From Poriferisphaera corsica (GTDB lineage: Bacteria; Planctomycetota; Phycisphaerae; Phycisphaerales; Phycisphaeraceae), in contig NZ_CP036425.1 of the NCBI RefSeq assembly GCF_007747445.1, forward strand, positions 2,712,175 through 2,776,174: a DNA stretch of 64,000 nucleotides, in the 5' to 3' direction. The notes beneath the pieces are model-generated. The model was given only the letters and a program-made list of their open reading frames with translations, did no database searches and had not been told where the DNA came from. Within the stretch, counting starts at the first letter, position 1, and every line of letters starts with the position of its first letter. Positions 7,301-43,317 of the stretch are shown one piece after another. The translations under genes and the position numbers were made by a program.

Positions 7301-9970
7301 ACTAATTATTCATCCAATGGATTCGATACCCCAACACCAGGCCGATTTGAACACTTCCTATACCTCACGCAAGATCACCTACGTCCACTCAAGAACTTGC
7401 AAGCACAGATCGTCAAACAAAAAGGCAAACTGGACGACACTTCCAATCCATATCAGAAAGAAGAACTACGTCGTAAAAAAACGCAAAATCACCTTCAGGC
7501 GATCCAGAACAAATACGTTGACCCGATACTCAAAGTAGCAAAACTATACAAGATCGCATTGCCACAAATCGACGAATACCTGCAAGCGCGTCACGCGCCT
7601 GAGCGTAACCGTGAGCTGTCTATCTCGCACCGTAAAAAAGACGTTTATGCCGGGAAACAACGCAGCACCGGCAAACTCTGGACAGATGAGTATGCACGGG
7701 AATATGTGCAGAAAATCGAATCCTCAAAGAAAGGCGCGGCCTACAAGAAAATCGCCCGTTTGCATGACCAGATGAACCGAGAAACCGTAGAACTTTGGCG
7801 AGAATCAGGTCTTGTCTCAGAAGATGTTTATGATGCGCTGAATACCAAGTACGAGTTCTATACGCCCCTGAAAACCGATCTTGAAGAATTAGCCGACAAG
7901 CCGTTCTCAGGTATCGGCATGGGGATTGATATTCGGGGTAACGAGTTTAAACGCGCCTTTGGCCGCAAATCTGCCGCAGGTTCATCACTCACCTTTGCAA
8001 TCACATCCGCGCAAACCGCGATCATACGAGCAGAAAAAGCGAAAGTCGGGCGCACCTTCTACAAACTCGTCAAAGAAAACCCCAACCCCAATCTTTGGTC
8101 AATTGATGAGAAACCATCCAAACTCGCTTTTGATGAACAGGGAATAATCACGCAAGTCGTGGACGAGTCTCACAAGTACAAAGACAACGTCTTTGCAGTT
8201 AAAGTTGATGGGAAAGTTCATCACATCACAATCAATAATCCCGAATATCACAGTGTAGCAAGAGCGCTCAAGAATCTTGATCTGGAAGGCCAGAATGAAT
8301 TTATCCGTGGGTTAGGTGTCGCAAACAGATTCCTAGCTTCAATGTCTACTAGATGGAACCCATTCTTCGCACCTGTCAATATGGTGCGCGATGTTGGTTC
8401 TGCTTCGCTTACATTAACAGGCGAAAAAGGCATACAGCAAACAGCCAAAGTTCTGGCTAAAACTCCATTTGCGATGGGTGCAGTTTGGCGAGGATTGCGT
8501 AAGGGATACACAGCCCAAAGAAACAAAAAGGGGTATCGTGACGGGAATCGGAAGTGGGATAAGATTTACAAAGAATACCGAGATAGCGGCGCTCCGGTCG
8601 CGTTCATTGATCTACAAAGTTATGAAACGACAAAGAAGGAAATTGATCGTGACCTTAAGGCACTAGATCAATCTAAACTATCTCCCAAAAAGGCACCATA
8701 TCTACTCTACAAGGTGTTTCAGAAATACGCGCACTTCACAGAGGACATCAATGAAGTGTTTGAGAACGCTGTACGTGTTGCAGCTTATCAACACGCTCGC
8801 GAATCTGGCATGACGCAGGATCAGTCCGCATCTTATGCGAAGAACCTGACCACCAATTTCGAGCGAAAAGGCGTTTATAGCCCAGTAATTTCTTCTTTGT
8901 ATATGTTCGCTAATGCGCAAGTGCAAGGTAACTACCGAGTGGTTAGCTCAGCCAAAAACCACAAGGGGACTCGTAAGGTTGTAGCGTCGCTCGTTGCTGC
9001 TGCAGCCCTACAAGATGTGATTAACCGAGCCGTCGCGGGTGAAGATGAAGATGGTGAGAACTACTACGATAAGATTCCTGAGTACACCAAACGAAACTAC
9101 ATCATTCTGATGCTTCCCTTTAGTGAAGGCCAGCACATAAAAATTCCATCGCCCTTCATCTATAACCTTGCAACAACAGTTGGGCGTAATCTCAACTCAT
9201 CGGTATACGGCACTACTTCACCGATTGAAGGGTCGGTCAATATGATCAACTCGGCCTTTGATACATTCAATCCGACGGGCACCGCAGAGAACACACTCGA
9301 CACAATCACCCCCACTGTATTCAGGCCGTGGCTACAAAGCGCACAGAACCGTAACTGGACGGGTAATCCGATTATGCCAGAAGGCTCGGCTTTTGCAGCT
9401 TACGACAACCCGGACTCCCAGAAGTATTGGCGTTCTGTAAGCCCTTCGCTGCGTAATATGATGGAGATGATTAACTATTGGACGGGAGGCGATGAGGATG
9501 AGAGTGGGTTGATTGACGTGTCGCCAGAAACTGTTGAACACTATCTTAAAAGCTGGTCAGGTGGTGCGGGTGCATCACTAATGCGTATCTGGAATGTTGG
9601 CGACAAGTGGTATCACGGAGAGCCAGTTGGCACATACGAGATGCCGCTTGTGCGCCGGTTCTATGGAGGAAACAATCCGAGATACTACCGCGATCGTTTC
9701 TATAAGTGGGGTGAGGAAATTGCACGCGAGAAGGAGCGTGTCGAGGGCAAAGACAAGAAGAAAAAGATTGGATGGAACCACCAACGAGCGACAGCGTTTG
9801 CAAGAATGCAGGCAGAATTCAATAACATCAAAAAGCGGGTACGTAAGCTTAAGAAAGATCGTGAGGGGATCACCGATTCTGAGAAGAAGAAAACTTTTGA
9901 TATGCGGATTGACAAGATGTATATCCTGTTCAATAAGAAGATGGTTGGTTTAGAAAAGCGTTTCAGTTAG
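1385..9970 (+). CDS. Giant phage polyvalent protein (proteases, ADP-ribosyltransferase-like, LPD domains)
   Basis: A 2,861-residue protein of the polyvalent class, in which phages pack several effector domains into one protein thought to enter the host with the DNA. Visible parts in order: an Ala/Gly-rich, partly hydrophobic region (about 210-450); a first zinc-protease motif HEYVH near 619; Lys/Glu-rich low complexity (about 850-910); an LPD5-like segment near 1050-1150; an LPD1-like metallopeptidase with HEWFH near 1275; an LPD3-like nuclease-fold segment near 1450-1600; and an ART-PolyVal-type domain from about 1644, with YHGS followed by GWGMYFA. An LPD38-like C-terminal region starts near 2315. 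Domain names come from remembered family patterns, not a search; the two HEXXH motifs are seen directly. The last 8 bases overlap the converging early operon. Confidence 0.8.
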   Translation: MNNTLSEAMKAATLAESSNIQGHREKDESTLADAMKSSGVSQPNIVSDNVTSAPLRRQMTQRQYNQVQKLQQKMVADAQARGSVTKGADVANFYALKKLGQQNNRIEKRPNGGTRIVAGHIGKPELKKQYEAETLVPIDEQRWSSIQKAMDASNPSNSHNLLRDQLHQHASKYDTAYRNLDTIGKGKRIDQYLEQMGMPTSDKIAESNIRKDQIQKRGIWGDVSSGFVRSGHQFGTGAWGLVSPDEANARSEWLQKNLGQSNTFSEGVGSTAYNLAKATGYLNPATALPTIAADSSSVAGSKRMEAQNLREQGYEVSGWNELTSAAGGAATEFVAGLVMRGIVKGSSAVTKPLASKLPAAIASKNPRVVADVLKKAVPAFATRAGIVGTSEGAEEGLTQIAQNMIDMHTGLKREGSIYDGVSESAWEGFKIGGALGVLGGAADANSRTIVSKAHEYTEPMLVQRIKEIKGEKGGIKLTPQLLEDAAEEIRYEVNAGGNAGVVIDKTLNKYAQMAIEGKTPLTKTREAQSTESELTEVKTYQTNIQNATGDKSISLKHVKPQGRRFKLANLGAHKLGKKILFIESSLGADNPLPASMGTDKNTILIDVNAKSPMTSLVSHEYVHSLRKSDPKSYNEIVSNLKQVSPDLLDQSAQQYLRDLNAATDGHLDLSKDAQTEEGVAYLFEHMADKTEFWQNLRRQNESAFHKLAAKIRELISRLANNGVVNDRLSLIDQTIAAAEQQQRDVETQAKDLSEQSQARIQNGQGSLADEVVVQVVAMDQKIRELRGKEYDEAISGSERSELAELVAERQRLVKLSEGTDEATDGVLRDATFGEDDLAPTQGELETEPQEGAGEGDDDEVSQSTTVSPKKVAEQSTRSADTQGVETPVENKKKRKKNKQKTKNKGQATKIEDFGEKIGGARKDYAQTLKSYINTNVASMDDEQIVKQAKLAKIFPAPDYHKLKKSGLSDQSLIAVKVLRESIGSAPQKYLSRKRDWLEAAQHKRDIAIQILDTNNPVEALKSLTMSAHHIFKFTERVKYLSAMNFPDMPTGAGGYRIGGSDGRYWVAKGKSYIGGDHKTYQEAVDAIKTTLAVTPTSVRGTKFDVYRLRNHQDKKYIVGKKIKSQNYIDLVDGFATASEARTYIKEKQADLEDALASAKYIPPHRNQKNSERIGRDYRKGQDVSPTKFADTFGFRGVEFGNWVEGDRRQQDLNESYDALRDMATILNIPTKAISLNGELGLAFGSRGRNTKANAHYEASKVVINLTKTRGAGSLAHEWFHAVDNYFARMRKDPDSFITDDPKHRANYQTGEPDTSVRSEVLEAFNNVLKSIRSTEMVSRANSLDAKRTVPYWNTPIELGARAFESYVVYKNQQNQSHNDYLANVISEELYESPNSYPYLKTDEAKPVIEAFDNLFSTIKTKKTDKGVAMFAAARQRDPSKSNPKVPQNLLQRFDEDIPVIKLNKALFYKKRISKESKPKLKKWLMQRAKKLIHGNHKNKDTGWTINVSSAGIRHAISKGQKELSFELVRAIEPMIHNAILVESNHDASNRDTIKAFHHMYVPVQIGNDLHRVTLTIRETRDGHKYYDHDGIKIEPAHTSGIPKTPRSSKAGSKITIGQLLEKVKLDNGKAVINTNERQDKPKFAAAYHGSAHDFDAFTTQRIGTGEGAQAYGWGMYFAGNKKVAEWYKEKLARKSERQVAWDLESKASKLGVVISKISNGQFPRELELRAKSEMRRILRQASLDWTRGQSDTLNALKKQSRVSKNKMHLADSALLDANEHSHTLAAIEDLKIDGDFAAIDYLASKAAIQILEDGTLSLSGQGKLYQVDLKPEEHEYLSWDKPLSEQNETVKNALANIPPKIRKQINESLEYHDTPSLDEMLADNIYSGRDLYLALKHYDVHEALPPEVKGSSWAGGDTTYAKHTSLYLKSLGIRGIKFLDGASRKKGEGDSNYVIFDDADVEVTAKFAVAGETNYSSNGFDTPTPGRFEHFLYLTQDHLRPLKNLQAQIVKQKGKLDDTSNPYQKEELRRKKTQNHLQAIQNKYVDPILKVAKLYKIALPQIDEYLQARHAPERNRELSISHRKKDVYAGKQRSTGKLWTDEYAREYVQKIESSKKGAAYKKIARLHDQMNRETVELWRESGLVSEDVYDALNTKYEFYTPLKTDLEELADKPFSGIGMGIDIRGNEFKRAFGRKSAAGSSLTFAITSAQTAIIRAEKAKVGRTFYKLVKENPNPNLWSIDEKPSKLAFDEQGIITQVVDESHKYKDNVFAVKVDGKVHHITINNPEYHSVARALKNLDLEGQNEFIRGLGVANRFLASMSTRWNPFFAPVNMVRDVGSASLTLTGEKGIQQTAKVLAKTPFAMGAVWRGLRKGYTAQRNKKGYRDGNRKWDKIYKEYRDSGAPVAFIDLQSYETTKKEIDRDLKALDQSKLSPKKAPYLLYKVFQKYAHFTEDINEVFENAVRVAAYQHARESGMTQDQSASYAKNLTTNFERKGVYSPVISSLYMFANAQVQGNYRVVSSAKNHKGTRKVVASLVAAAALQDVINRAVAGEDEDGENYYDKIPEYTKRNYIILMLPFSEGQHIKIPSPFIYNLATTVGRNLNSSVYGTTSPIEGSVNMINSAFDTFNPTGTAENTLDTITPTVFRPWLQSAQNRNWTGNPIMPEGSAFAAYDNPDSQKYWRSVSPSLRNMMEMINYWTGGDEDESGLIDVSPETVEHYLKSWSGGAGASLMRIWNVGDKWYHGEPVGTYEMPLVRRFYGGNNPRYYRDRFYKWGEEIAREKERVEGKDKKKKIGWNHQRATAFARMQAEFNNIKKRVRKLKKDREGITDSEKKKTFDMRIDKMYILFNKKMVGLEKRFS

Positions 9971-24017: not shown

Positions 24018-24041
24018 CGTGACTCCTCTTAAGTTGCTTAA

Positions 24042-24114
24042 CAGAAGGGACAGGACTCGAACCTGCGACCGGCGAATTTGGAATTCGCTGCTCTACCAAC
24101 TGAGCTACCCTTCT
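24042..24114 (-). tRNA. trnW: tRNA-Trp (anticodon CCA)
   Basis: A complete 73-base cloverleaf: acceptor AGAAGGG/CCCTTCT with discriminator G, D arm GCTC...GAGC, anticodon loop TTCCAAA (CCA), T arm GCAGG-TTCGAGT-CCTGT with one imperfect pair. CCA is not encoded. It is transcribed with the early operon. Phage-borne tRNAs usually supplement or replace host tRNAs. Confidence 0.9.
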
Positions 24115-24116
24115 AT

Positions 24117-30190: not shown

Positions 30191-30502
30191 GTGGCGAAAA
30201 AATCAACAAAAAATGTAGACAGAGCGTCATTGAATGTGTCTTTGACTTCGAAAGACGCACTAGAAGCCGTATCTGGGAAATACAGAGTTTCACAGAAGAT
30301 GGTTATAGAGCGTTTGCTGGAATGGTTTAAGGATCAGCCAGAGGAAGTTCAAGCGCCAATCCTGATGCAGATCCCGCAAGCATATAAGAGCGATTTTGTC
30401 CGGATCATCCTCGATCGCATGGTCGAATCCGAGGGCAGAGAAGACGCTAGAGAAGTGATTAAGAGTATTGAACAAAAGGCTTTAGGTAAAAAGAAACGAT
30501 AA
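30191..30502 (+). CDS. Small phage regulator-like protein
   Basis: 103 residues starting at GTG. Basic N-terminus MAKKSTKNVDRASLNVSLTS then KDALEAVSGKYRVSQKMVIE, which looks like a ribbon-helix-helix or short helix-turn-helix unit (beta strand NVSLT followed by two helices). The C-terminal half is helical and charged, ending ALGKKKR. Divergent from the early operon across the operator-like region, so a lysogeny regulator is likely. Family not certain. Confidence 0.5.
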   Translation: MAKKSTKNVDRASLNVSLTSKDALEAVSGKYRVSQKMVIERLLEWFKDQPEEVQAPILMQIPQAYKSDFVRIILDRMVESEGREDAREVIKSIEQKALGKKKR

Positions 30503-30538
30503 AACAGGCCGAGCAGTATGGGTCTGGGGAGCAATCAG

Positions 30539-30739
30539 ATGCCGCGGCAATGCCCAAAATGTGGCCTGGAGCAAATATTTGAAGACAGCCATTGCATGAT
30601 GTGTGGGGCGAATGTCCCAGATTGCAACACCAAATCAAAGCCCAGAACAAAGCAAACATTGGAAGCCGTCATTGTCATCGCTATCGGTTTGGCGTTGACA
30701 GCTATTGCATACTTTGGGCACGACCTGATTTACGGGTAA
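30539..30739 (+). CDS. Zinc-ribbon plus one-span membrane protein
   Basis: 66 residues. A four-cysteine zinc ribbon at the start (MPRQCPKCGLEQIFEDSHCM, Cys5, 8, 19 and 22) and one membrane span near 42-60 (LEAVIVIAIGLALTAIAYFG). The ATG has GGGGAG eight bases before it; an upstream in-frame ATG is also possible. First of three neighbouring genes with the same combination. Role unknown. Confidence 0.6.
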   Translation: MPRQCPKCGLEQIFEDSHCMMCGANVPDCNTKSKPRTKQTLEAVIVIAIGLALTAIAYFGHDLIYG

Positions 30740-30754
30740 TCTGGAAGCAAAAAC

Positions 30755-31408
30755 ATGCCATACTGCACACAATGCGGCTACCAACTACAGAATGACCATG
30801 ATTCGTGTCCTAAATGCGTCACCGAGTCAAAAGCGATACCTGTCGCCACAGCTTCAGCACCATCCATCACGCACACGAATGACACGCCTCAAGCATCCCC
30901 CGCATCTACGGAATCTAAGTACATCGCCACCCATAAGCGGCGGCTAATCATCATCGCCATCTCATCGTTCTGTGTTTTGTTTGTAGCGTTATCAATGAAT
31001 GACTTTTTTTTGATATTTGAGATGATCCTCGCATTCGTCATTTTTTCACTTATAGATATGATCATCCTGCGGATTGGATGCCAAAGCATATTAAAACAGA
31101 AAATACATCTTGGCCCTTCATACACACTTGCTACTATTTTCGTTTGTGTATCACTCATCATGGTACACCTACTCTCAATTAACGATTCCACAACGCCATC
31201 TGATTTTCTCGTACTGTCATTCGTTCATGTTGCCATCGTGATCGCATTATTCATTTGGATATGTTCGGGCACCATGCGGGTCAACAGGCATAAACCACCA
31301 GCTGGCAGGATTGTCCGAATTGGGTTGCTTCTCTATGGCGTTAATTTTTGTTTTTTAGTATTGCCCACATCATTGCTAAATGTGATGATCCGTTTGTCTG
31401 AAATGTAA
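30755..31408 (+). CDS. Zinc-ribbon multi-span membrane protein
   Basis: 217 residues. Zinc ribbon at the N-terminus (Cys4, Cys7, Cys18, Cys21 in MPYCTQCGYQL...CPKC), a Thr/Ser/Pro-rich linker, then about five membrane spans starting near residue 62 (RRLIIIAISSFCVLFVALSM). Cytoplasmic zinc ribbon with membrane body. Starts 15 bases after the previous gene, so probably one transcript. Similar architectures are common among planctomycete membrane proteins with unknown function. Confidence 0.65.
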   Translation: MPYCTQCGYQLQNDHDSCPKCVTESKAIPVATASAPSITHTNDTPQASPASTESKYIATHKRRLIIIAISSFCVLFVALSMNDFFLIFEMILAFVIFSLIDMIILRIGCQSILKQKIHLGPSYTLATIFVCVSLIMVHLLSINDSTTPSDFLVLSFVHVAIVIALFIWICSGTMRVNRHKPPAGRIVRIGLLLYGVNFCFLVLPTSLLNVMIRLSEM

Positions 31409-31447
31409 CCCATACATGTGTATTGATATACGTCGAGGAAAAGTTAC

Positions 31448-33094
31448 ATGGGATCGGTAATCGTTTTTGTTTTTCTTGTTTTGCAGTGGACTGATGTTAT
31501 TGACTGGCCGTGGTATGGGATTGCTGCACCACTAATTCTTGATGCACTGGGTGTATTAGCGATCCTCACTTCTGGGAAGTGGGGTGACGCCGCGATTGTT
31601 GCGTGCATAGCGAGTGTCGCGCTCATTTTGTCGTGGATGGCAGGCAACGCCGAATACAGTATGTTTTGGTGGGGGATGCCTGTTTTATTGTTTGTCGTCT
31701 CTTCAAAGCTTCCTAATTCTGGCAGTGGCGGCGCTATCCTTCGTCGTATGCTTTTAGGAAAACCCGCAAAAAAGTGTTGCCCATCGTATATACCGACAGA
31801 AACAAGCTCAAATATTTGTGGACAATGCGAACATCCTGCAAAGCAAAACGATAAATTCTGCTACCAATGCGGTGCCGACATCAATGAGCCAAAACCACCA
31901 TCCGAAAGTGAAACCCAAGAGAGAATCTTAAGAGATATTGTTATCAATCAGGGCAAGACATTGGCGCAGATTAAAGCCAGCCTGAACATCCAAGAACAAC
32001 CGTACAGAGAAATTTTCGAACGATATTCAGAAATACAATCTACATCTGATTTGAAATGTATTGCCAACCATCAATGTGAAATTTTACAACAAATTAAAGA
32101 TGCCCAAAATTCCCAGAAACAATTAGAAGAAAACGTACCGAACAATACAACAACTCAACCCATCTCTGAACCAATAACCGATACGAATACAAACAACGCT
32201 AGCGATCAACCATCTGAGAGAATGCAATGCTGGCGGTGCAAGTATCAAGCGAAGGAAGGCGACAAATTTTGCCATAAGTGCGGGGCAGCGCTTAATCATC
32301 CACCAAAATCACACAAAAAACGATCTTCATTTGAGGTAATCATAAGCAGCAAGCAAGAAGCTGCGCTAGCATCGAACGACGATAGCACAAACCCGATTTT
32401 GATCGTGGGTTATATTCTCATGGCAATGTTCACAATATTCGGAATATTGATATGCGTTTCAATTTTTAACGATGTCCAGATCCCTCAATACACACAAAAT
32501 AAATCACAACCAGTCGCTTTCACCGAAGTTGCCCCGGATGATCAAATCAACGCAACAGAGATAAACAAGACAGATTCCTCAGCGCCAAGTGAAATTGTGG
32601 CCGCAAAAACGCCAGCCAAATCTATCTATATCCCTAGCCTGATTGGGCCCGACAGCTCATTCTGGGTCGATTACGCACAAACATATGGCATGCTAACCGT
32701 GGATGATGGCAAAGAACTAATCTTCGCAGCAGCAGAGCAAATAAAGGCTACACACAACATTAACAACTGGAGTGATGAGCGATACACCGATACCATACTG
32801 CAAAAACTAGACGCTCTTTCCGAACAGGAGAATGCGCACAGAACGCAAAAAGCGATAGAAACCTACTGGATTTCTTATCATGAGCAATACCCACGAATCT
32901 CAATAGCTGAAGGTAAAAAATTATGGGAAGAAAGCAAAAATGATGCCCGCGAAATGCTCAAATCTTACGATGTAACCACGGAGGATTTAGGTGAATTGGC
33001 GAGGAAGCTTTTGGGCATCAGATCGCGCAAAATATCTACTTTGCGTAAGATTGATGAACAATCCGATGAGCATCAGAAAACCATGCCTGATTGA
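31448..33094 (+). CDS. Large membrane protein with two zinc ribbons
   Basis: 548 residues. Three to four N-terminal membrane spans (residues about 1-85), zinc ribbon 1 near 124-143 (CGQCEHPAKQNDKFCYQCG), a helical region likely to form a coiled coil (about 150-230), zinc ribbon 2 near 261-280 (CWRCKYQAKEGDKFCHKCG), another span near 318-340 and a C-terminal soluble region of about 200 residues rich in Glu/Lys helices. The two ribbons resemble each other. Third gene of the cassette between the lysogeny control region and the integrase, a place where phages often carry accessory genes. Confidence 0.65.
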   Translation: MGSVIVFVFLVLQWTDVIDWPWYGIAAPLILDALGVLAILTSGKWGDAAIVACIASVALILSWMAGNAEYSMFWWGMPVLLFVVSSKLPNSGSGGAILRRMLLGKPAKKCCPSYIPTETSSNICGQCEHPAKQNDKFCYQCGADINEPKPPSESETQERILRDIVINQGKTLAQIKASLNIQEQPYREIFERYSEIQSTSDLKCIANHQCEILQQIKDAQNSQKQLEENVPNNTTTQPISEPITDTNTNNASDQPSERMQCWRCKYQAKEGDKFCHKCGAALNHPPKSHKKRSSFEVIISSKQEAALASNDDSTNPILIVGYILMAMFTIFGILICVSIFNDVQIPQYTQNKSQPVAFTEVAPDDQINATEINKTDSSAPSEIVAAKTPAKSIYIPSLIGPDSSFWVDYAQTYGMLTVDDGKELIFAAAEQIKATHNINNWSDERYTDTILQKLDALSEQENAHRTQKAIETYWISYHEQYPRISIAEGKKLWEESKNDAREMLKSYDVTTEDLGELARKLLGIRSRKISTLRKIDEQSDEHQKTMPD

Positions 33095-33544: not shown

Positions 33545-33766
33545 TTAACCCAGATAAGAGCGTAGTGTTTTTGGTGTAATACCAAGACTATCGGCAGCGT
33601 GGGTCATGTTGCCGTTGTATTGATCAACCCGCGATTCAGCAACCAGCTTACGAATTTCTGTGTAACTCAACCCCTCAATTACAGCGCCCATCACAGCGCG
33701 CCGATCAAATTCAACACAAGGCACAGCGCCCCGAACAGATTCGCTAAAAACTACTTTCAACTTCAT
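33545..33766 (-). CDS. Fis-type helix-turn-helix protein
   Basis: 73 residues. The C-terminal 25 residues, QYNGNMTHAADSLGITPKTL followed by RSYLG, are a clear Fis-family (HTH_8) helix-turn-helix, as found at the end of sigma54 activators and in Fis. The N-terminal 45 residues include MKLKVVFSESVRGAVPCVEF and are unrecognised. A small DNA-bending or regulatory protein close to the integrase could assist recombination, as Fis does for lambda; inferred from position. Confidence 0.7.
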   Translation of the reverse strand: MKLKVVFSESVRGAVPCVEFDRRAVMGAVIEGLSYTEIRKLVAESRVDQYNGNMTHAADSLGITPKTLRSYLG

Positions 33767-33785
33767 GGCAAGGAGAGTCTATCAT

Positions 33786-34034
33786 ATGGATGAGAACAAC
33801 AGCCCCAAAGCTGGATTGTATTCCATAATTGAGCCATTAATTAGCCTTCTGGGATGTTTAGGCGCATTTGTCTTTCTGTTAGTTGTGCTTGGGTTTGTGG
33901 GGTTTTTATTATCTTTAATGGGTTTGACGTTCAGCGATGACGAATATGACCCACATATTATGTCACCGGCAGAGCAAAGATTTAACGCGATAGATGATGC
34001 CAGAGATCAAGGCTTATATAGCGAAGACGAATAA
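33786..34034 (+). CDS. Small membrane protein
   Basis: 82 residues. One long hydrophobic stretch, LISLLGCLGAFVFLLVVLGF followed by VGFLLSLM, may span the membrane once or form a hairpin. The C-terminus is acidic (DARDQGLYSEDE). The chosen ATG has AAGGAGAG upstream; an earlier ATG at 33,765 overlaps the start of the divergent Fis-type gene. No family recognised. Confidence 0.5.
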   Translation: MDENNSPKAGLYSIIEPLISLLGCLGAFVFLLVVLGFVGFLLSLMGLTFSDDEYDPHIMSPAEQRFNAIDDARDQGLYSEDE

Positions 34035-34118
34035 TCTAAGACGCACAATCTTCTATTTGTTAGCCGCCATGTTGTTATGATATTCGTAAGGATTGTTAAG
34101 TTAGCTACGGGGTTAAGT

Positions 34119-35399
34119 ATGCCAATTCGACGCACAAAACCAACACCACCAAAACCGTCAACCCATCACAACAAACCTTGTTGGCAAACACGATGGCGTG
34201 AATCAAACCTCGATACTGGCAAGACCGTATCGAAAATCAAGAGATGGTACAACGCAACCCAAAGCCAAATTACCCACCTGTACTATGACTGGCTAAACAA
34301 CGAGTTTGCAAAGCTTTCAGATACTCCCAACTACAAACAGACGATGCTCACCGAAGAACTGTGCGAGCTGTATTTAAACCACAGCAAAAAGACTTACACT
34401 AAAAACGGTAAGCCTACATCCCACCTCTCAAACGTCATAACGGCAATCAATGAGCTTGTCGCAAGAGAAGGCAAGCGACCAATGAATATGATGGACGCGC
34501 CAGCACTAGCAAAATACCGCGATGCTGTGATCAAGAACCCCAAAGGCAGGGTAAGACACCGAAAAACGGTCAACGAATACCTCTCCATCATCAAAAGAAT
34601 GTACCAATGGGGTAGAGAGCAAGGGGTTGTTAACGCTCAGACAGCAAACGACCTACAGCTCGTCGCCAATCTCCAACCAAGAAGAACCAAAGCCAAAGAG
34701 CGTAAAGGGGTAAAGCCGGTTGCATGGCAAACAGTTGAAGCCACCCTGCCCCACATGCATAAACAGATACAGGACATGATACTTATCATGTGGTACACCG
34801 GGATGCGTCCCCAAGAAGTTTGTGTCATGAGAACTAAGGACATTGACACCACATCTTACAAAGGCATATGGGTTTACCGTCCCCACATCAGCAAACTCGA
34901 CCACCTGGACGACCACGAAGATGAGGACAACCGCAAGCGGGTAATTGCCATCGGTAAGACAGCACAAGAGATCATCACACCATACCTGCTACCACGACTC
35001 GAAAAGTACATCTTTGATCCGAGAGAAGCACCAAACGCAAACAACAAAGCAACAGGGAGATATACCAGTGATTCACTGGGCAAAGCTCTAAAGCGTGCGT
35101 GCGACAGGGCTTTCTTTCCCTCAGAACCTCCTTTGTGCAGGGAAGAAGGCGAGACGATAGGGAAGTGGAGATACAGGGTAGGACGCGACACGGGGCTTTC
35201 AGCGACCTACAAAGCACACAGAGATAAGCACCGATGGAATCTCAACCAGTTACGCCATTCAAGAGCAACAGAACTCAATAAACACTACAACATGGAAGCC
35301 GCCCAAGTGTCATTAGGGCATTCAAGCTTGAATACAGCCCAGATATATGCTGAGAAGAACTTGGAATTAGCCGTAGAGATTGCGAGAGATATGGGTTAA
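34119..35399 (+). CDS. int: Tyrosine-type site-specific integrase
   Basis: 426 residues. Catalyses insertion and excision of the prophage at tRNA-Ala. The N-terminal SAM-like core-binding part covers about 80-190; the catalytic domain has Arg230 (TGMRPQEV), Arg379 (NQLRHSRAT), His401 (LGHSS) and the nucleophile Tyr410 (IYAEKN). The box II histidine of the usual H-x-x-R is Asn376. The sequence resembles integrases frequent on planctomycete elements (YIFDPREA segment). Start chosen at MPIRRTKPT with ACGGGG upstream. The attachment site lies 555 bases downstream with one small gene between. Confidence 0.95.
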   Translation: MPIRRTKPTPPKPSTHHNKPCWQTRWRESNLDTGKTVSKIKRWYNATQSQITHLYYDWLNNEFAKLSDTPNYKQTMLTEELCELYLNHSKKTYTKNGKPTSHLSNVITAINELVAREGKRPMNMMDAPALAKYRDAVIKNPKGRVRHRKTVNEYLSIIKRMYQWGREQGVVNAQTANDLQLVANLQPRRTKAKERKGVKPVAWQTVEATLPHMHKQIQDMILIMWYTGMRPQEVCVMRTKDIDTTSYKGIWVYRPHISKLDHLDDHEDEDNRKRVIAIGKTAQEIITPYLLPRLEKYIFDPREAPNANNKATGRYTSDSLGKALKRACDRAFFPSEPPLCREEGETIGKWRYRVGRDTGLSATYKAHRDKHRWNLNQLRHSRATELNKHYNMEAAQVSLGHSSLNTAQIYAEKNLELAVEIARDMG

Positions 35400-35828: not shown

Positions 35829-35953
35829 AACGCTACATACTTTCGAGTGCAATTTGCACACATTAGTACTCAACTGTTTGGAAAGTATTGTAAACTAGGA
35901 GTTTATGGGGACTTACGAAACGGGTGAATAGCGAGTTTTCCACAAAAAATTCG

Positions 35954-35995
35954 TTTGCAACCAGTAGGTCAGCGGTTCGAGCCCGCTAGGCTCCA
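35954..35995 (+). other. attR: Prophage attachment site: 3' half of tRNA-Ala(TGC)
   Basis: The sequence starts exactly at a tRNA anticodon loop TTTGCAA (TGC, Ala) and continues through anticodon stem 3' strand CCAGT, variable loop, T arm AGCGG-TTCGAGC-CCGCT, acceptor strand AGGCTCC and discriminator A. The 5' half is absent. This is what remains at the far end after integration into a tRNA 3' half; the intact tRNA should lie left of the window. Confidence 0.85.
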
Positions 35996-36002
35996 TTAAC
36001 AT

Positions 36003-36036
36003 AAACCTCTGAATTTAATAGATTTAGAGGTTTTTT
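36003..36036 (+). terminator. Rho-independent terminator behind the tRNA-Ala fragment
   Basis: AAACCTCTGAAT, 7-base loop, ATTTAGAGGTTT followed by T6: a 12-base-pair stem with one wobble pair. Probably the original terminator of the tRNA-Ala gene carried into the attachment region. Confidence 0.75.
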
Positions 36037-36218: not shown

Positions 36219-39200
36219 CTAAACTGTAAAGCTGATCGGCTGCTCGTGGCTAATCCCGATTAGGTTCACACCTATCAAACCCGAATCTCGTCCCGGGCCA
36301 ATGCCGCTGTACGCAAATGAGTCAGGTCCGGATGGGATGCCGACCTCAACGGTATCAATCGGACTTAGGTATTCATGCTCCCAGAAGCCGACGAGTTCGG
36401 GTATGAAGAGCATTGCTGATGTGTCATACTTATACGTAGTTCTAAAACCAAGACGTGTCACAAACGAGTTGCCATTAAACGCACCGACGTCTAGATTCAA
36501 ACTATCGGCACCGGTTTCACTGTGCGATTCGATTTGCAGGTTCACCCATTGCAATGCAAGCTGAGGCCCGAACCCCCAGTTACCTGATTTAAATTCATAG
36601 CCACCGGTTGCTAGTGCCTGCAAGTAAAAACCGGTTGGATCTGACTCAGCAACACGGTCAATCATACCAAACACGATGCGACGGTTGTTTTCATAAAAGT
36701 TCACGCCGCCACCAAACAGACCTGATGCGTAAAAACCTTCTTCATTGAACCAAGTCATGTACATCCCGGTATTGATACTGTTAAACGAACTGGTGCCTTG
36801 CCCGCTGTCTACGGTGATGCCAGTGTTGGAGTAGCCAAAGAAAGCGCCTGCGGCGAGTGAGTCGAGTACACGGTAGTCGAACCCAAACGTTACACCGGCG
36901 GTATTGAATTCGTAACCCGCTTGACTTGAGGTTGAATCAAAATCACCAAAGGTACCGAAGCCATTGATCCATGCGCCCCAGATATCTTTGCCTACACCAG
37001 AGAAACGATTGGTTTCCTGCTGCTGCTCCAATGTCTCCTGCGTCTGCATCGCAAAGAGTATGACGTACTCGGGATCGACTGATTCTTCAATACTAGCGCC
37101 CTGCGGTGTGTTGACGCTGAGGTTGTTAGACCAGAGCTTGGGTAGATCATAACGCAGCTCGTTGAGGCGCCCATTGAAGTTGTTATTTTGAACGTCAATG
37201 CCTTTAAATGTTGCTTCAGCCTGCGGCACAAGATAGTTCGGCACGATCTGCTCAAATGCAACAACCAAAGCTTGACCCGTCTGGTTTTCAAGCTGAGCAA
37301 TCACTGTTGCAATGTCACCGGTTGGCGAGTTTTGCGAAATACGCTCGAATGCATCAGCGGCAGAGAAAAGATTACGCTGTGTGATTGAGGAAAAATCCGC
37401 TAACGCCTCATTCAACGTAATCACAATATCAGTCGCATTGTAAGTTGCCGAGACTTCAAAGCCAGCGATGTCGTCACTAATTGTTGCGAACGTACCACTC
37501 ACGCCATCATCTGCTTCAAGAATCGTAAACGTATCACCATCCTCCGGCACGTAGCCGGGTAAACCAATCACATTCAATGTGCCGTCAATCGCAGCACTAC
37601 CAGTCACATCAATCAAATCATTGCCCGTGCCAGCACCTGCTGTTGATTCGATCTCCATGTCATAGATGCTTGAACTATTCAATGTCAGAGTGCCGCCAAC
37701 AACCATCGTCCCCGCACTGTTGCCCGGAGAGATCGTGCCGGAGCTGATGCAGTTACCAGCTATTGACATCGCACCACCAAGTGTTGCGCCATTGTAAACA
37801 AACATATTCGTATTGCCCATATTGGCGTTAACAATCAATGTCCCCGCTCTAACCGCTGTCTCACCGGTGTAAGTGTTGCTACCAGATAGCGTGAGTGTAC
37901 CTGAACCTTCTTTAGTCAAGCTGCCATTACCACTGATAACACCAGCCAACTCAAGATCATTGCTACCACCTACTGTCAACATCAAACTAACGCTAAAATC
38001 ATTATTCACAGTTCTCGCATCATCACTGGATTCAATTGTAGAACTACTTGCTACTGAGACACCGCCTGCCCCCAATGCATCATCATGACCAAGGATGACC
38101 GTCCCGCCGGATAATGTTGTTCCACCTGAATACGTATTCGCACCACCAAGCGTCAATGTGTTGGTAGCTGATTTTGTTAATGACCCCTCACCACTGATAA
38201 TACCAGACAGTGTAAGATCATTACTTCCATTAAACGTCAGCGAATTACTCTCTGAAGTAAATCCTATCGCATTACTGATAGAACGTGTATCATCATTTGA
38301 TTGAATCGTGACAGCACCATCCAGCGTAAGACTGCCTGTCCCCAGCGCATTATTATGACCAAGTATGAGACCCCCATCTTTACTTGATGTTCCACCAGTA
38401 TATGTATTGTTACCACTAATTGTGATAGTTTTACCAGACATCTCTAAAGCCAGCGATCCATCACCACTAATGATACCACTATAACTGAAGCTACTTTTAG
38501 AACCATCCAATAGTAATGAAACGCCATTACTGATACTGGTAGCATTTCTTATTGCGAAATCATCTGATGCAGCCAATCTCGAGTCACCTGTCACATTAAA
38601 CAAACCTCTTCCTAATGATTGGCTTGACTCAATGACAATCGCACCCTCCGAAAGAGTTGTACCCCCAGTGTGCGTGTTATCACTGCCAAGTGTTAATTCA
38701 CTGCCTCCGCTTTTTACTAAAGCACCATCACCACTGATAACACCAGAAATTTCCAGATTATTACTACTTTCTCCACTAACAGTCAGCGTATGACCAGAAC
38801 CAACACCAATGCTATTACTAATTGAACGTGAATCACTATTCCCCTCAAGCACTGCATCACCCTCCACCAACACACTGCCTGTCCCAAAAGCACTGTCATT
38901 ACCGACAATAATTTTTCCACTTGATAAAGTCGTGTCACCGGTATAGGTATTAACACCACTAAGTGTCAGTGCATCAGTGGGTTCATCCAAACTCACATTC
39001 AAACCACCACCGCCACTGATCACACCCGAAAGTTCCAGATCATTACTACCAGAAACTGTCAAAATTGCTGTAGACACCGTCGAAAACGTATTGCTAATTA
39101 ACCTCGCATCATCATTCGACGAGATTGTACTAGAGGCATTCAAACTCACATTACCAGTACCTAATGCATTATCATTGCCAACAATAATCGTACCACCCAA

Positions 39201-41147
39201 CATGAAGGTTGAACCGGTATATGTATTATTCCCTGTCAATAAAACCGAGCTACCGGCTTCTGAAGCGATACCACCACTACCGCTAATCGTTCCAGATAAT
39301 GTGAGCTGATTACTACCGACAATAAAAACATCGTTACCTGATGAAGTGATAAAGTTATTACTAATATTGCGTGCATCATCATCTGACTGAAGACGCCCAA
39401 AATTTGTTACAGTTACATTGCCCGTTCCAAATGCATTGTCATGCGCAACAATTACAGTACCAAGATCCAGCGTCGTGCCGCCACTGTATGTATTATTGCC
39501 ACTGAGTGTGAACGTTTCAGTATTCGATGACATATCCAACGCCAAAACACCATCACCACTAATCACACCGGACAGTTCTAGATTATTGCCACCCCCTACA
39601 GTTAGTGTTTGTTCCGAATTAATATTAATTGCATTGCCCACAGTTCTGGCATCATTATCTGATTCAAATACCGTGTCACCCGATATAACAACACTGCCTG
39701 TTCCTAAAGCATCATCATTGCCAAGAATTATCGTACTCCCAGATAAGGCAGTACCGCCGGTATAGGTGTTAGTGCCGCTAAGCGTGAATGTTCCGCTACC
39801 GCTTTGGTTTACTGAGCCATCGCCACTAATCACACCTGAAAGTGCAAGATTGCTATCACCACTCACAGTGAGCGTTTGATCAGATGCAATACGAATACCA
39901 TTGCCGACTGATCTTGCATCATCATTCGATTCAATCGAACTGCTAAAATTCACAAGCAAATCGGCAGTGCCTATTGCATTATCATTGCCAAAGATGATCG
40001 TATTCTCACTATTTGCTAAAAGAGTATTGCCAGTATATGTGTTGTTCCCTGTCAGTAATATCGTGGTATCGCCCAGTGCAGCTAAACCACTACTGCCACT
40101 TATGATTCCCGATAGTGTAAGTTTATTACTGCCGGTGACAGCGAGCGCATTACCAGGTGAAGTAATGAAATTGTTGCCAATGTTACGTGAATCATCATCT
40201 GATTGAATCCGTCCATTATTTGTTCCGGTTGTTACATCGCCTGTTCCCAAGGCATCGTCATTGCCAAGTATGAGTGTGCCGCTGGTTATGGTTGTTCCAC
40301 CTGTATACGTATTTGCGCCACTGAGTGTCAATGTGTCGCTGGATGCATCCATATTCAATGTCAACGCACCATCACCACTGATGACACCAGAAAGCACAAG
40401 ATTATTGTCGCCGTCCACAGTCAGCGTGTTACTGCCAAGATCGATTGCATTACTCACTGATCGTGCATCATTATCCGATTGGATCGCTTGGCCCAGATCA
40501 GTGTTTAAGGTTAGCGTACCTGTCCCTAAAGCATCATCATTGCCAAGAATTATCGTGCCACCAGAAAAGGTTGTTCCGTTGGTATAGGTGTTGGCACCAG
40601 TGAGTGTGACTATACTGCTACCACCACTTACGTTCACTGTACCATTGCCACTGATCACACCTGATGCATTGATTGCACTACTACCGGAAAAATTGCATTG
40701 AACCCCACCAGTCAGGCCAACATCACCAGTCAGCGAGATACCACCCACCAAGGCGCTTACGGTGAATGAAGAGCCCAGGCTTACAATATCTACACCGATC
40801 GTTGCGGTACCTGTTTTGCCATTGAAAATGCCCGTGCCGGTATTAAATGTCAGCGAGCCGGTGCCCTGAAGGGTGTAATCACCATCCGTGCCAGTTCCGT
40901 CGAATAACATCCCACCGATATTGGTGTAAGCGAGATCAATCCCGGTGAGTGTGAATGGCGACGCGCCATTGCCCGATTGTATGGTGATCTGCCCATCGAC
41001 ATCGGCTGCAAGCGCGCTACCTCCCGACCAATTGGCATCAAGCGTCCAGCTATTGCTTGTTCCACCTGTGAATGTCACATCTGCTGCGTGAAGCTGCACG
41101 ATACCGCACATGCATAAGCATGCTAAACCCGTTAGTTTGCGAGACAT
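36219..41147 (-). CDS. Giant autotransporter adhesin, truncated by an amber codon
   Basis: 1,642 residues before the stop. A signal peptide (MSRKLTGLACLCMCGIVQLH) leads into a long passenger of beta-helix type with 11 autotransporter-associated repeats of the form NTYTGGTTL...GNDDALGTG, then a linker and a C-terminal autotransporter barrel from about residue 1370 (WGAWINGFGTFGDFD). The known family inserts the barrel in the outer membrane and shows the passenger on the surface. The frame stops at TAG after ISFTV, but the same frame continues for 23 sense codons and ends in NNVYAGVRVTF, the classic last barrel strand with terminal Phe. As given, the barrel lacks its insertion signal. Confidence 0.85.
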   Translation of the reverse strand: MSRKLTGLACLCMCGIVQLHAADVTFTGGTSNSWTLDANWSGGSALAADVDGQITIQSGNGASPFTLTGIDLAYTNIGGMLFDGTGTDGDYTLQGTGSLTFNTGTGIFNGKTGTATIGVDIVSLGSSFTVSALVGGISLTGDVGLTGGVQCNFSGSSAINASGVISGNGTVNVSGGSSIVTLTGANTYTNGTTFSGGTIILGNDDALGTGTLTLNTDLGQAIQSDNDARSVSNAIDLGSNTLTVDGDNNLVLSGVISGDGALTLNMDASSDTLTLSGANTYTGGTTITSGTLILGNDDALGTGDVTTGTNNGRIQSDDDSRNIGNNFITSPGNALAVTGSNKLTLSGIISGSSGLAALGDTTILLTGNNTYTGNTLLANSENTIIFGNDNAIGTADLLVNFSSSIESNDDARSVGNGIRIASDQTLTVSGDSNLALSGVISGDGSVNQSGSGTFTLSGTNTYTGGTALSGSTIILGNDDALGTGSVVISGDTVFESDNDARTVGNAININSEQTLTVGGGNNLELSGVISGDGVLALDMSSNTETFTLSGNNTYSGGTTLDLGTVIVAHDNAFGTGNVTVTNFGRLQSDDDARNISNNFITSSGNDVFIVGSNQLTLSGTISGSGGIASEAGSSVLLTGNNTYTGSTFMLGGTIIVGNDNALGTGNVSLNASSTISSNDDARLISNTFSTVSTAILTVSGSNDLELSGVISGGGGLNVSLDEPTDALTLSGVNTYTGDTTLSSGKIIVGNDSAFGTGSVLVEGDAVLEGNSDSRSISNSIGVGSGHTLTVSGESSNNLEISGVISGDGALVKSGGSELTLGSDNTHTGGTTLSEGAIVIESSQSLGRGLFNVTGDSRLAASDDFAIRNATSISNGVSLLLDGSKSSFSYSGIISGDGSLALEMSGKTITISGNNTYTGGTSSKDGGLILGHNNALGTGSLTLDGAVTIQSNDDTRSISNAIGFTSESNSLTFNGSNDLTLSGIISGEGSLTKSATNTLTLGGANTYSGGTTLSGGTVILGHDDALGAGGVSVASSSTIESSDDARTVNNDFSVSLMLTVGGSNDLELAGVISGNGSLTKEGSGTLTLSGSNTYTGETAVRAGTLIVNANMGNTNMFVYNGATLGGAMSIAGNCISSGTISPGNSAGTMVVGGTLTLNSSSIYDMEIESTAGAGTGNDLIDVTGSAAIDGTLNVIGLPGYVPEDGDTFTILEADDGVSGTFATISDDIAGFEVSATYNATDIVITLNEALADFSSITQRNLFSAADAFERISQNSPTGDIATVIAQLENQTGQALVVAFEQIVPNYLVPQAEATFKGIDVQNNNFNGRLNELRYDLPKLWSNNLSVNTPQGASIEESVDPEYVILFAMQTQETLEQQQETNRFSGVGKDIWGAWINGFGTFGDFDSTSSQAGYEFNTAGVTFGFDYRVLDSLAAGAFFGYSNTGITVDSGQGTSSFNSINTGMYMTWFNEEGFYASGLFGGGVNFYENNRRIVFGMIDRVAESDPTGFYLQALATGGYEFKSGNWGFGPQLALQWVNLQIESHSETGADSLNLDVGAFNGNSFVTRLGFRTTYKYDTSAMLFIPELVGFWEHEYLSPIDTVEVGIPSGPDSFAYSGIGPGRDSGLIGVNLIGISHEQPISFTV

Positions 41148-41700
41148 AAGTCACCTGTATTTTTTAAAAACGCTATTCTGAAACGAATGGATAAAAAGAA
41201 ATCCAAACCACCAGCAGAAAGTGCTCAAAATGACATAACTCTTAACTTTACCACCGGAAACCGGCTCATCAGACTAATTACTATTCTAAAAGTTTCGACT
41301 AATCGATCTTTATATCTTAAAAATGATGTACGCATAATCATTTATCATTAACAATGCTATTATCTATATTGTTAAATCCATCTGATGGTATCCAGCAGGA
41401 TATTCAATATTTGGCACAGATTTGTCACTCAAAATGCATGTTTGCAATAAGTAGGCCTGCGGTTCGAGCCCGCTAGGCCCCATTAAATACAAACCTCTAA
41501 ACCATTACGAATAAATTCAAGCACGTAACGGTAGTCTCAATAGCGATGCGTGCTAATGGGATATTTTGAAAAGTTTGACCGGTGAATGTTGTCAATCGCG
41601 ACGGTTGCATGCGATCAGAATGTGAACAATTGGTCGATTTTGCTCATATGTAGTCCTATGATTAGTTCGTTAGCATTGGTTAATAAAGAGGTCAGTATCG
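41148..41700. other. Intergenic region holding a second tRNA-Ala remnant
   Basis: AT-rich non-coding stretch between the autotransporter and msrA. Besides the tRNA-Ala remnant described separately, a short inverted repeat around AACAATGCTATTATCTATATTGTT (41,349-41,372) is visible. No gene seen. Confidence 0.4.
41441..41482 (+). other. Second, diverged tRNA-Ala 3' half (old attachment site)
   Basis: Again starts at the anticodon loop TTTGCAA and runs to the discriminator base, with 36 of 42 positions shared with the copy 5.5 kb to the left by eye; the T stem now has one mismatch and the acceptor reads AGGCCCC. The following bases (ATTAAATACAAACCTCT) also match the first copy's flank. Marks the far end of an older insertion. 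Confidence 0.75.
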
Positions 41701-42465: not shown

Positions 42466-42493
42466 AAGCGTGAGTTTTACTCACGCTTTTTTT
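42466..42493 (+). terminator. Terminator between msrA and a converging gene
   Basis: AAGCGTGAGT, loop TTT, ACTCACGCTT then a T run: a perfect 10-base-pair stem just after msrA. Confidence 0.9.
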
Positions 42494-43220
42494 ATAAACG
42501 GGTCCCAGCGTTACGGAGTTTGTGTATGAAATTTGCGAGGCCATGCTTGCCGAGGATGATGACAAGACCCAGGATGAATTGAAAGATGTAGGGGATGGCA
42601 TACATCAGATCACTGCCACCTGATGGGAAAAAATAGCTGAGTTGAGCGGTGTCGTCACCAATACCGAAGGATTGATAGGCGATACCGTAGAAAAGATAGA
42701 TGAGCTTGATGATGGCCGCGAATGTGATGTATGCGCCAATCAGAGTTAGACCAACAGTCATGAGTTTGGGAGCAGTAAGCCCGGGGCCAAGAATAAAACG
42801 GCCGCGGGGTTTAAAAATTTTATTGACAATCGCGGGGGCATAATAAAACAGCATGATAATAAAAACTGCGCTAGTAACGTGCATACCACCAAACATGATG
42901 AATTCTTGGAAGGAAACATCAATAGCTACTAACGCTGTGGATTGTTGAGGCAGAATAAAAGTGAGAAACGCAGCGAATATTTGCACAATCATTGGGAAAA
43001 TATACACGATAAAGCAGTAAACCATGAGTAAACGAAAAAGTGCGGTAATGACTGCGTGCTGTGTCGTGTTGTGATACTCAGCAAGTGATTCATTGATCGC
43101 GAGGCCACATTCGGGGCAATTGCTGTCGGTACTAAGATTAAGCAGATTGTAGTCGCAACTGGCGCATTGAATCGGCTCATGAATCATGAGAGGTGTAATG
43201 GGCATATCGTTTTTAGGCAT
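42492..43220 (-). CDS. Zinc-ribbon membrane protein
   Basis: 242 residues. N-terminal zinc ribbon CASCDYNLLNLSTDSNCPEC, then about five membrane spans (for example FRLLMVYCFIVYIFPMIVQI and PYIFQFILGLVIILGKHGLA). Start chosen at MPKNDMPI, with GGGGTG ten bases before; a longer frame adds 13 residues. This family layout is frequent in Phycisphaerae genomes with no known role. Ends against the msrA terminator. Confidence 0.65.
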   Translation of the reverse strand: MPKNDMPITPLMIHEPIQCASCDYNLLNLSTDSNCPECGLAINESLAEYHNTTQHAVITALFRLLMVYCFIVYIFPMIVQIFAAFLTFILPQQSTALVAIDVSFQEFIMFGGMHVTSAVFIIMLFYYAPAIVNKIFKPRGRFILGPGLTAPKLMTVGLTLIGAYITFAAIIKLIYLFYGIAYQSFGIGDDTAQLSYFFPSGGSDLMYAIPYIFQFILGLVIILGKHGLANFIHKLRNAGTRL

Positions 43221-43317
43221 AATGCACCCCGGTGATAAGGTAATCGTGACATCATGCATTTTAGTAAATGCTCATTATTTTGGATAGATATTGTCCAACA
43301 ATGTATTTGCCTATAAA

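Follow-up and report, generated by a model that had tools for sequence, protein, structure and literature searches.

The cI-rexA-rexB operon of phage lambda, which runs divergently from the early genes, has a regulator gene at its head and membrane protein genes behind it. Proteins of the TcaA type are laid out as a zinc ribbon, a membrane span, and outer domains. The satellite capsid modifiers P4 Sid, SaPI Cpm, and PLE TcaP are soluble proteins that act on capsids in the cytoplasm. In phage P22, SieA is described as an inner-membrane protein proposed to interfere with the conduit of gp16 and gp20, ejected proteins that, in the same account, exit the virion at infection and build a conduit for the DNA (PMC10883804). 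As described for P22 assembly, the scaffold may be needed for the assembly of gp16 and gp20, its column is the proposed docking site of the ejection proteins, and the part of the scaffold tied to gp16 incorporation is an N-terminal loop (PMC12005531).

The locus considered here is a run of genes in a prophage of Poriferisphaera corsica, the last of which encodes ORF3, a predicted membrane protein with zinc ribbons and a C-terminal domain resembling part of the phage’s own putative capsid scaffold. Like lambda cI-rexA-rexB, the run places a possible regulator ahead of membrane protein genes and is divergent from the early genes; unlike lambda Rex, it has no Pfam or PADLOC match that names Rex, and ORF3 has a scaffold domain. 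ORF1, ORF2, and ORF3 align weakly with the N-terminal part of the TcaA model NF053815, with scores of 15.6, 15.5, and 14.0 bits, where the cut-off for membership is 550. P4 Sid, SaPI Cpm, and PLE TcaP are scaffold-like or capsid-directed proteins turned against a phage, as ORF3 may be, whereas ORF3 is predicted to be membrane-held and is encoded by the phage itself. P22 SieA, as described, resembles ORF3 in being a prophage-encoded cytoplasmic-membrane protein of a short-tailed phage, the membrane placing of ORF3 being a prediction; ORF3 is set apart by its zinc ribbons and its copy of a domain of its own scaffold, neither of which appears in the SieA descriptions consulted. The P22 analogy is also loose because the gp16-linked part of the P22 scaffold, in the account cited above, is an N-terminal loop, while the domain found in the P. 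corsica prophage sits in the C-terminal half of its scaffold. In the open-licence literature searched, no phage membrane protein was described as carrying a scaffold domain.

Prophage ends and gene content

The window, i.e., the whole 64,000-nucleotide stretch of DNA that was analyzed, contains part of a ~60-kb prophage that extends from about 2688118 to 2748188 of the genome and continues 24 kb to the left of the window. It is flanked by an exact 62-bp repeat that corresponds to the 3′ end of a tRNA-Ala(TGC) gene. That gene is intact at the left boundary (genome 2688088-2688160), 60 kb from the right att core, which is an exact copy of the tRNA end on the + strand (window 35953-36014). A degenerate third tRNA-Ala 3′ end, with three mismatches in 29 positions (window 41454-41482), stands past a 1642-aa autotransporter-like gene (36219-41147), as if the same tRNA had formerly served another element as its integration site. 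The prophage also contains two tRNA genes, for tRNA-Trp (window 24041-24115, - strand) and tRNA-Ser (stretch L005, 1650-1740, + strand).

The left prophage arm encodes the terminase and the portal, a putative scaffold that is acidic (genome 2704214-2705194), and a probable capsid protein. The scaffold was named from gene order and composition, and the names “scaffold” and “capsid” in this prophage rest on gene order; none of the Pfam and PHROGs models names the putative scaffold. Among PHROGs, the portal has matches to portal families; its matches to the portal models of P22 and SU10 fall below cut-off. A 2861-aa phage protein (window 1385-9970) contains the polyvalent-protein domains LPD1, LPD3, LPD5, and LPD38, as well as a match to ADP-ribosyltransferase that stays below cut-off, and is a candidate for an ejected virion protein. 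To the left of the run, early-type genes on the minus strand encode DnaB, SSB, RecT, a PDDEXK-like protein, and a C-5 methylase, 6 of the 10 ORFs scanned having matches at E 0.01. To its right are a 73-aa Fis-type helix-turn-helix protein (33545-33766, - strand; PF02954, 23.5 bits, cut-off 22), an 89-aa protein with one span and no ribbon (33765-34034, + strand), and a tyrosine integrase (34077-35399, + strand; PF00589, E 9.6e-15). The starts of the first two of these genes, which stand ahead of the integrase gene, overlap by 2 bases. The promoter scan returned 7 sites, fewer than the 12.7 in shuffles, and the terminator scan returned 11, more than the 6.8 in shuffles; the sites from both scans were set aside.

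The zinc-ribbon membrane proteins of the + strand run

The run (30191-33094, + strand) comprises four genes separated by gaps of 36, 15, and 39 bases. The first (30191-30502) encodes a 103-aa protein with a weak match to the N-terminal BfmA/BtgA model NF041200 (NCBIfam, E 1.3e-3; 18.9 bits, below the cut-off of 24), so that its likeness to this mobilization-protein family is weak; no Pfam model scores over its cut-off, and the protein is presumably ribbon-helix-helix-like. This gene extends the original prediction, as does the resemblance of the ORF3 end to the phage’s own scaffold. That prediction described three consecutive genes for products of 66, 217, and 548 residues, each combining zinc ribbon and membrane spans, and the ORFs, motifs, and hydropathy agree with it. 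Their placement between regulators and the integrase, on the strand opposite to early genes such as those for DnaB, SSB, and RecT, was likewise borne out, and so was the view that no known defence family is recognizable: PADLOC gave no convincing match, the best being at E 0.037 for ORF1, with none for ORF2 or ORF3 at E 0.1.

ORF1 (30539-30739; 66 aa) has one ribbon (CPKC/CMMC) and one C-terminal span, and is predicted by charge to have its N-terminus inside. An alternative frame from 30518 would encode 73 aa, yet GGGGAG precedes 30539. ORF2 (30755-31408; 217 aa), also N-in by charge, consists of an N-terminal ribbon (CTQC/CPKC), a linker, and five spans, and ORF3 (31448-33094; 548 aa) consists of three to four N-terminal spans, two ribbons, a further span at about residues 317-339, and C-terminal helical repeats, the spans of all three proteins being predicted from hydropathy. 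The ORF3 ribbons (CGQC/CYQC, residues 124-141, 31817-31870; CWRC/CHKC, residues 261-278, 32228-32281) exceed the curated cut-offs of PF13240 and PF12773, with 34.2 and 32.4 bits, and the second resembles the first (score 92 vs 27 ± 4.5 in 500 shuffles). The ribbons of ORF1 and ORF2 are below the Pfam cut-offs.

The original prediction took this shared architecture as an argument for a joint membrane complex. A ribbon pattern with a span occurs in 5 of 124 ORFs, three of them ORF1-ORF3, in a set that covers the window and stretches L005, L010, and L006, was chosen greedily (at least 60 aa, overlaps under 45 bases), and contains non-genes. The argument loses its force because ribbon-plus-span proteins are ordinary in the host, which makes the combination the least informative feature of the run. 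Host zinc-ribbon proteins with three to five predicted spans are encoded at window 42492-43259 (- strand) and at 3186-4244 of stretch L031 (- strand), and two adjacent zinc-ribbon multi-span genes lie at 6467-7363 and 7385-8326 of stretch L028. ORF2 was rejected as a copy of the host ribbon proteins, its score falling under the best of 500 shuffles in all four comparisons.

A scaffold-type domain in ORF3 and in a second phage

Residues 465-531 of ORF3 (32840-33040, + strand) match residues 202-268 of the putative scaffold, with 17 of 65 aligned residues identical, so a scaffold module is present in ORF3 as well. The scaffold gene lies ~38 kb from ORF3 in the same prophage, ORF3 itself standing beside the integrase gene and not in the portal-to-capsid interval, and the two proteins have this one domain in common. 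A search of the 4.29-Mb genome with ORF3 returned the scaffold as the sole match besides ORF3 itself (E 8e-4, limit 0.001), and the reverse search returned only the scaffold and ORF3 (E 1.2e-4, limit 10). Pairwise BLASTP of the two gave E 4e-6, and their alignment score of 95 was reached by none of 2000 shuffles (37 ± 6; maximum 70). A profile built from two scaffold copies alone detected ORF3 among 1215 ORFs at 23.6 bits (E 3.8e-6), and profiles from which ORF3 was left out recovered it at 23.6 and 24.7 bits; among controls, the best of 24,300 shuffled ORFs scored 15.5 bits and none of the 1215 reversed ORFs was reported. A possible degenerate first copy occupies residues 402-450 (32651-32797, + strand; 5.5 bits), and its score against the second repeat is 50, the best of 2000 shuffles reaching 49. 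This segment alone scores no better than shuffles against the scaffold (462 of 2000 reach its score) or against the 337-aa protein of the second phage described below (913 of 2000), and on its sequence it may be a decayed domain copy.

The sole TerL relative at E 1e-10 among 396 class genomes is in G183, a metagenome-assembled Phycisphaerales genome from another planctomycete family than P. corsica (contig WQYP01000078.1). The two phages are distant, with TerL 28% and portal 26% identical (portal E 3e-37) and capsid proteins related at a pairwise E of 4e-6, and they have the same order of portal, scaffold, and capsid genes. The P. corsica phage is isolated, its capsid protein having no match at E 0.001 in the 396 other class genomes. 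The G183 scaffold contains one copy of the domain. A 337-aa protein contains two tandem copies, 69 residues apart, behind an N-terminal anchor or signal, and the corresponding tryptophan-to-tryptophan spacing in ORF3 is 68 residues. Its gene is preceded, with a 4-bp overlap, by one for a 168-aa protein with two spans and two ribbon-like CxxC...CxxC motifs, the only ribbon-plus-span ORF among 25 on the contig; none of the Pfam ribbon models scores over cut-off on this protein, and it was rejected as an ORF2 homologue (14 bits, no sequence similarity). On the same strand, the pair comes directly before sigma-like, terminase, and head genes. The sigma-70 region 2-like protein (PF04542; stretch L029, 10784-11539) is encoded between the pair and the terminase genes. 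In sequence layout, ORF3 looks like the G183 pair joined in one chain, with ribbons, a span, and two domains; the one-chain and two-gene forms may reflect fusion, splitting, or parallel origin, all of which fit the two cases.

Co-inheritance in relatives, the point on which the original prediction could be refuted, is therefore borne out in part: a two-gene core of ribbons with spans and anchored scaffold-type domains recurs in G183, while the triplet does not, nor was its exact form found anywhere else in the searches. A “lysogenic cassette” is not established, because the G183 pair lies upstream of the terminase genes and no integrase was found among the 20 ORFs scanned on that incomplete 20-kb contig.

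The predicted topology was derived from hydropathy and charge, with zinc ribbons assumed to lie in the cytoplasm. The last ORF3 span (residues 317-339; 32396-32464, + strand) separates the ribbons from the C-terminal domain, which is therefore predicted to be outside the cytoplasm. Net charge just ahead of this span is negative, with a positive cluster further upstream. We infer an outside location from the order of ribbons, span, and domain, from the charges, and from the signal-like N-terminus of the 337-aa protein, which was judged from the sequence by eye. AlphaFold models of ORF3 and the 337-aa protein, each built on a two-row alignment, contain tandem helical units in a similar layout but are weak overall, with mean pLDDT of 57 and 59; the repeats of the G183 protein (74-91) are the sole part with good local confidence. 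At E ≤ 10, a fold search with the G183 model gave 113 viral matches and 27 from the PDB, none of which reached E ≤ 0.001, and sequence searches of solved structures gave chance-level matches or none.

In G183, the two membrane copies are identical to the scaffold copy at 51 and 48 of 67 residues (72-76%), while identity at third codon positions is 0.49 and 0.48; dN is 0.17 and 0.23, and dS is undefined or 4.5, i.e., saturated. Since synonymous sites are saturated and the proteins remain alike, these copies are old and have been kept alike by selection, as is expected when both must bind one partner. Between the two phages, domain identity is 13-16 of 65-67 residues. ORF3 is identical to its own scaffold at 17 of 65 residues and to the G183 copies at 13-15 of 65, barely a difference, and tracking of the phage’s own scaffold is thus clear in the G183 phage and marginal in the P. 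corsica prophage.

Searches for further carriers and relatives covered several collections. Of 396 other class genomes, 7 had a match to ORF3, with at most three candidates per genome scored; the matches were confined to residues 115-388 and never covered the C-terminal domain. A search of 100 other genomes with ORF2 found one match, a 39-residue ribbon in G058, and ORF1 was compared only with family libraries. No relative of ORF3 was found in viral contigs, phages (E 0.01), or plasmids, and none of five stretches matched in genome contigs was confirmed. Viral contigs held no relatives of ORF2, the capsid protein, TerL, the 337-aa protein, or the G183 TerL, and phages no matches to the scaffold, portal, or 337-aa protein. 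Collection scans, which like the contig scans are sensitive to close relatives only, matched 29 stretches with the domain alignment A3 and 44 with a TerL alignment, none confirmed. A3, which includes ORF3, detected no domain beyond the two phages in 397 class genomes and no further one in 28 genomes of the G183 order or 140 of the P. corsica order, sets that overlap. A match in G248 (E 0.0045) was rejected as a third carrier because it is antisense inside a larger ORF and hence spurious, and the TerL relatives G227, G192, and G158 had no domain match in fetched stretches or genomes. By these sequence searches, the scaffold-type domain is known from two phages only.

Possible roles of a membrane-held scaffold domain

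By analogy with SieA, we tentatively propose that ORF3 is a membrane-held mimic of a domain of its own scaffold and serves to catch virion proteins of related phages as they come in. Exclusion of other phages, one of the roles suggested in the original prediction, is accordingly the preferred functional reading, possible but held with more doubt than confidence. ORF3 would expose one clear and one degenerate helical module of the scaffold type at the outer surface of the cytoplasmic membrane, its two zinc ribbons facing the cytoplasm, and ORF1 and ORF2 would be small partner membrane proteins. When a related phage attempts injection into the lysogen, these exposed modules would bind the virion protein with which the scaffold module pairs; the likeliest partner would be one that leaves the virion before the DNA, and its capture would block entry of that phage. 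The outside location, the likeness to the phage’s own scaffold, and the constraint would fit together because a membrane-held outer docking module would capture its partner directly. As a counterpoint, it is odd for the domain of a cytoplasmic scaffold to be placed outside. It is doubtful, though conceivable, that such display of the phage’s own docking module as a decoy constitutes a new kind of superinfection exclusion, one that co-evolves with the scaffold and would be specific to relatives because it reuses the phage’s own assembly interface.

The main mechanistic rival starts from the same shared domain. T4 prohead assembly takes place on the membrane, with gp20 and gp40, and the domain could similarly recruit coat, portal, or scaffold so that procapsids start at the membrane. 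The G183 pair directly ahead of the sigma-like, terminase, and head genes is consistent with such a role, as is the circularized prophage map inferred from the att sites, on which the run would read toward the late arm. The domain is nevertheless predicted outside the cytoplasm, on the opposite side from the ribbons and behind a signal-like N-terminus in the G183 protein, and assembly at the membrane is judged unlikely; it would be preferred if the domain proved to lie in the cytoplasm. Unlikely, too, is that shuffling placed a generic helical module in a membrane sensor or moron of unrelated origin, with a host partner and an effect on host physiology and not on other phages. The abundance of ribbon-plus-span proteins in the host, the contact of ORF1-ORF3 with the TcaA model (14.0-15.6 vs 550 bits), and the marginal degree to which the ORF3 copy follows its scaffold are in keeping with that idea, against which stand the occurrence of the domain in just two phages among 397 class genomes and the closeness at which the G183 copies have been held to their own scaffold.

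A role in lysis, with the protein acting in the inner membrane like a spanin and carrying a helical outer domain, would account for the single N-terminal span and helical outer part of the 337-aa protein, and the G183 scaffold has a weak match to an Rz-like PHROG (E 0.0045), probably via its coiled coil. Such a role is very improbable, since it leaves the scaffold-like sequence and the zinc ribbons unexplained, and neither ORF3 nor the 337-aa protein has a PHROG lysis match. Least credible of all is that the ORF3-scaffold match reflects coincidental similarity of helices or composition. The identity of 17/65 is low enough to raise the question, and repeat 1 alone stays at shuffle level against both the scaffold and the 337-aa protein; the leave-one-out profiles, the reversed and shuffled controls, and the recurrence in a second phage all speak against coincidence.

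If the capture of incoming virion proteins by ORF3 is real, a phage would be using part of its own assembly apparatus to determine the phages that may enter after it, and procapsid assembly would be linked with superinfection exclusion. Membrane proteins bearing a scaffold domain would then provide a sequence handle for exclusion genes in phages that lack recognizable defence families, and the binding partner of the module would be directly testable. Even apart from exclusion, an explanation is called for: constrained copies of a scaffold domain are carried by membrane proteins of two distant phages.
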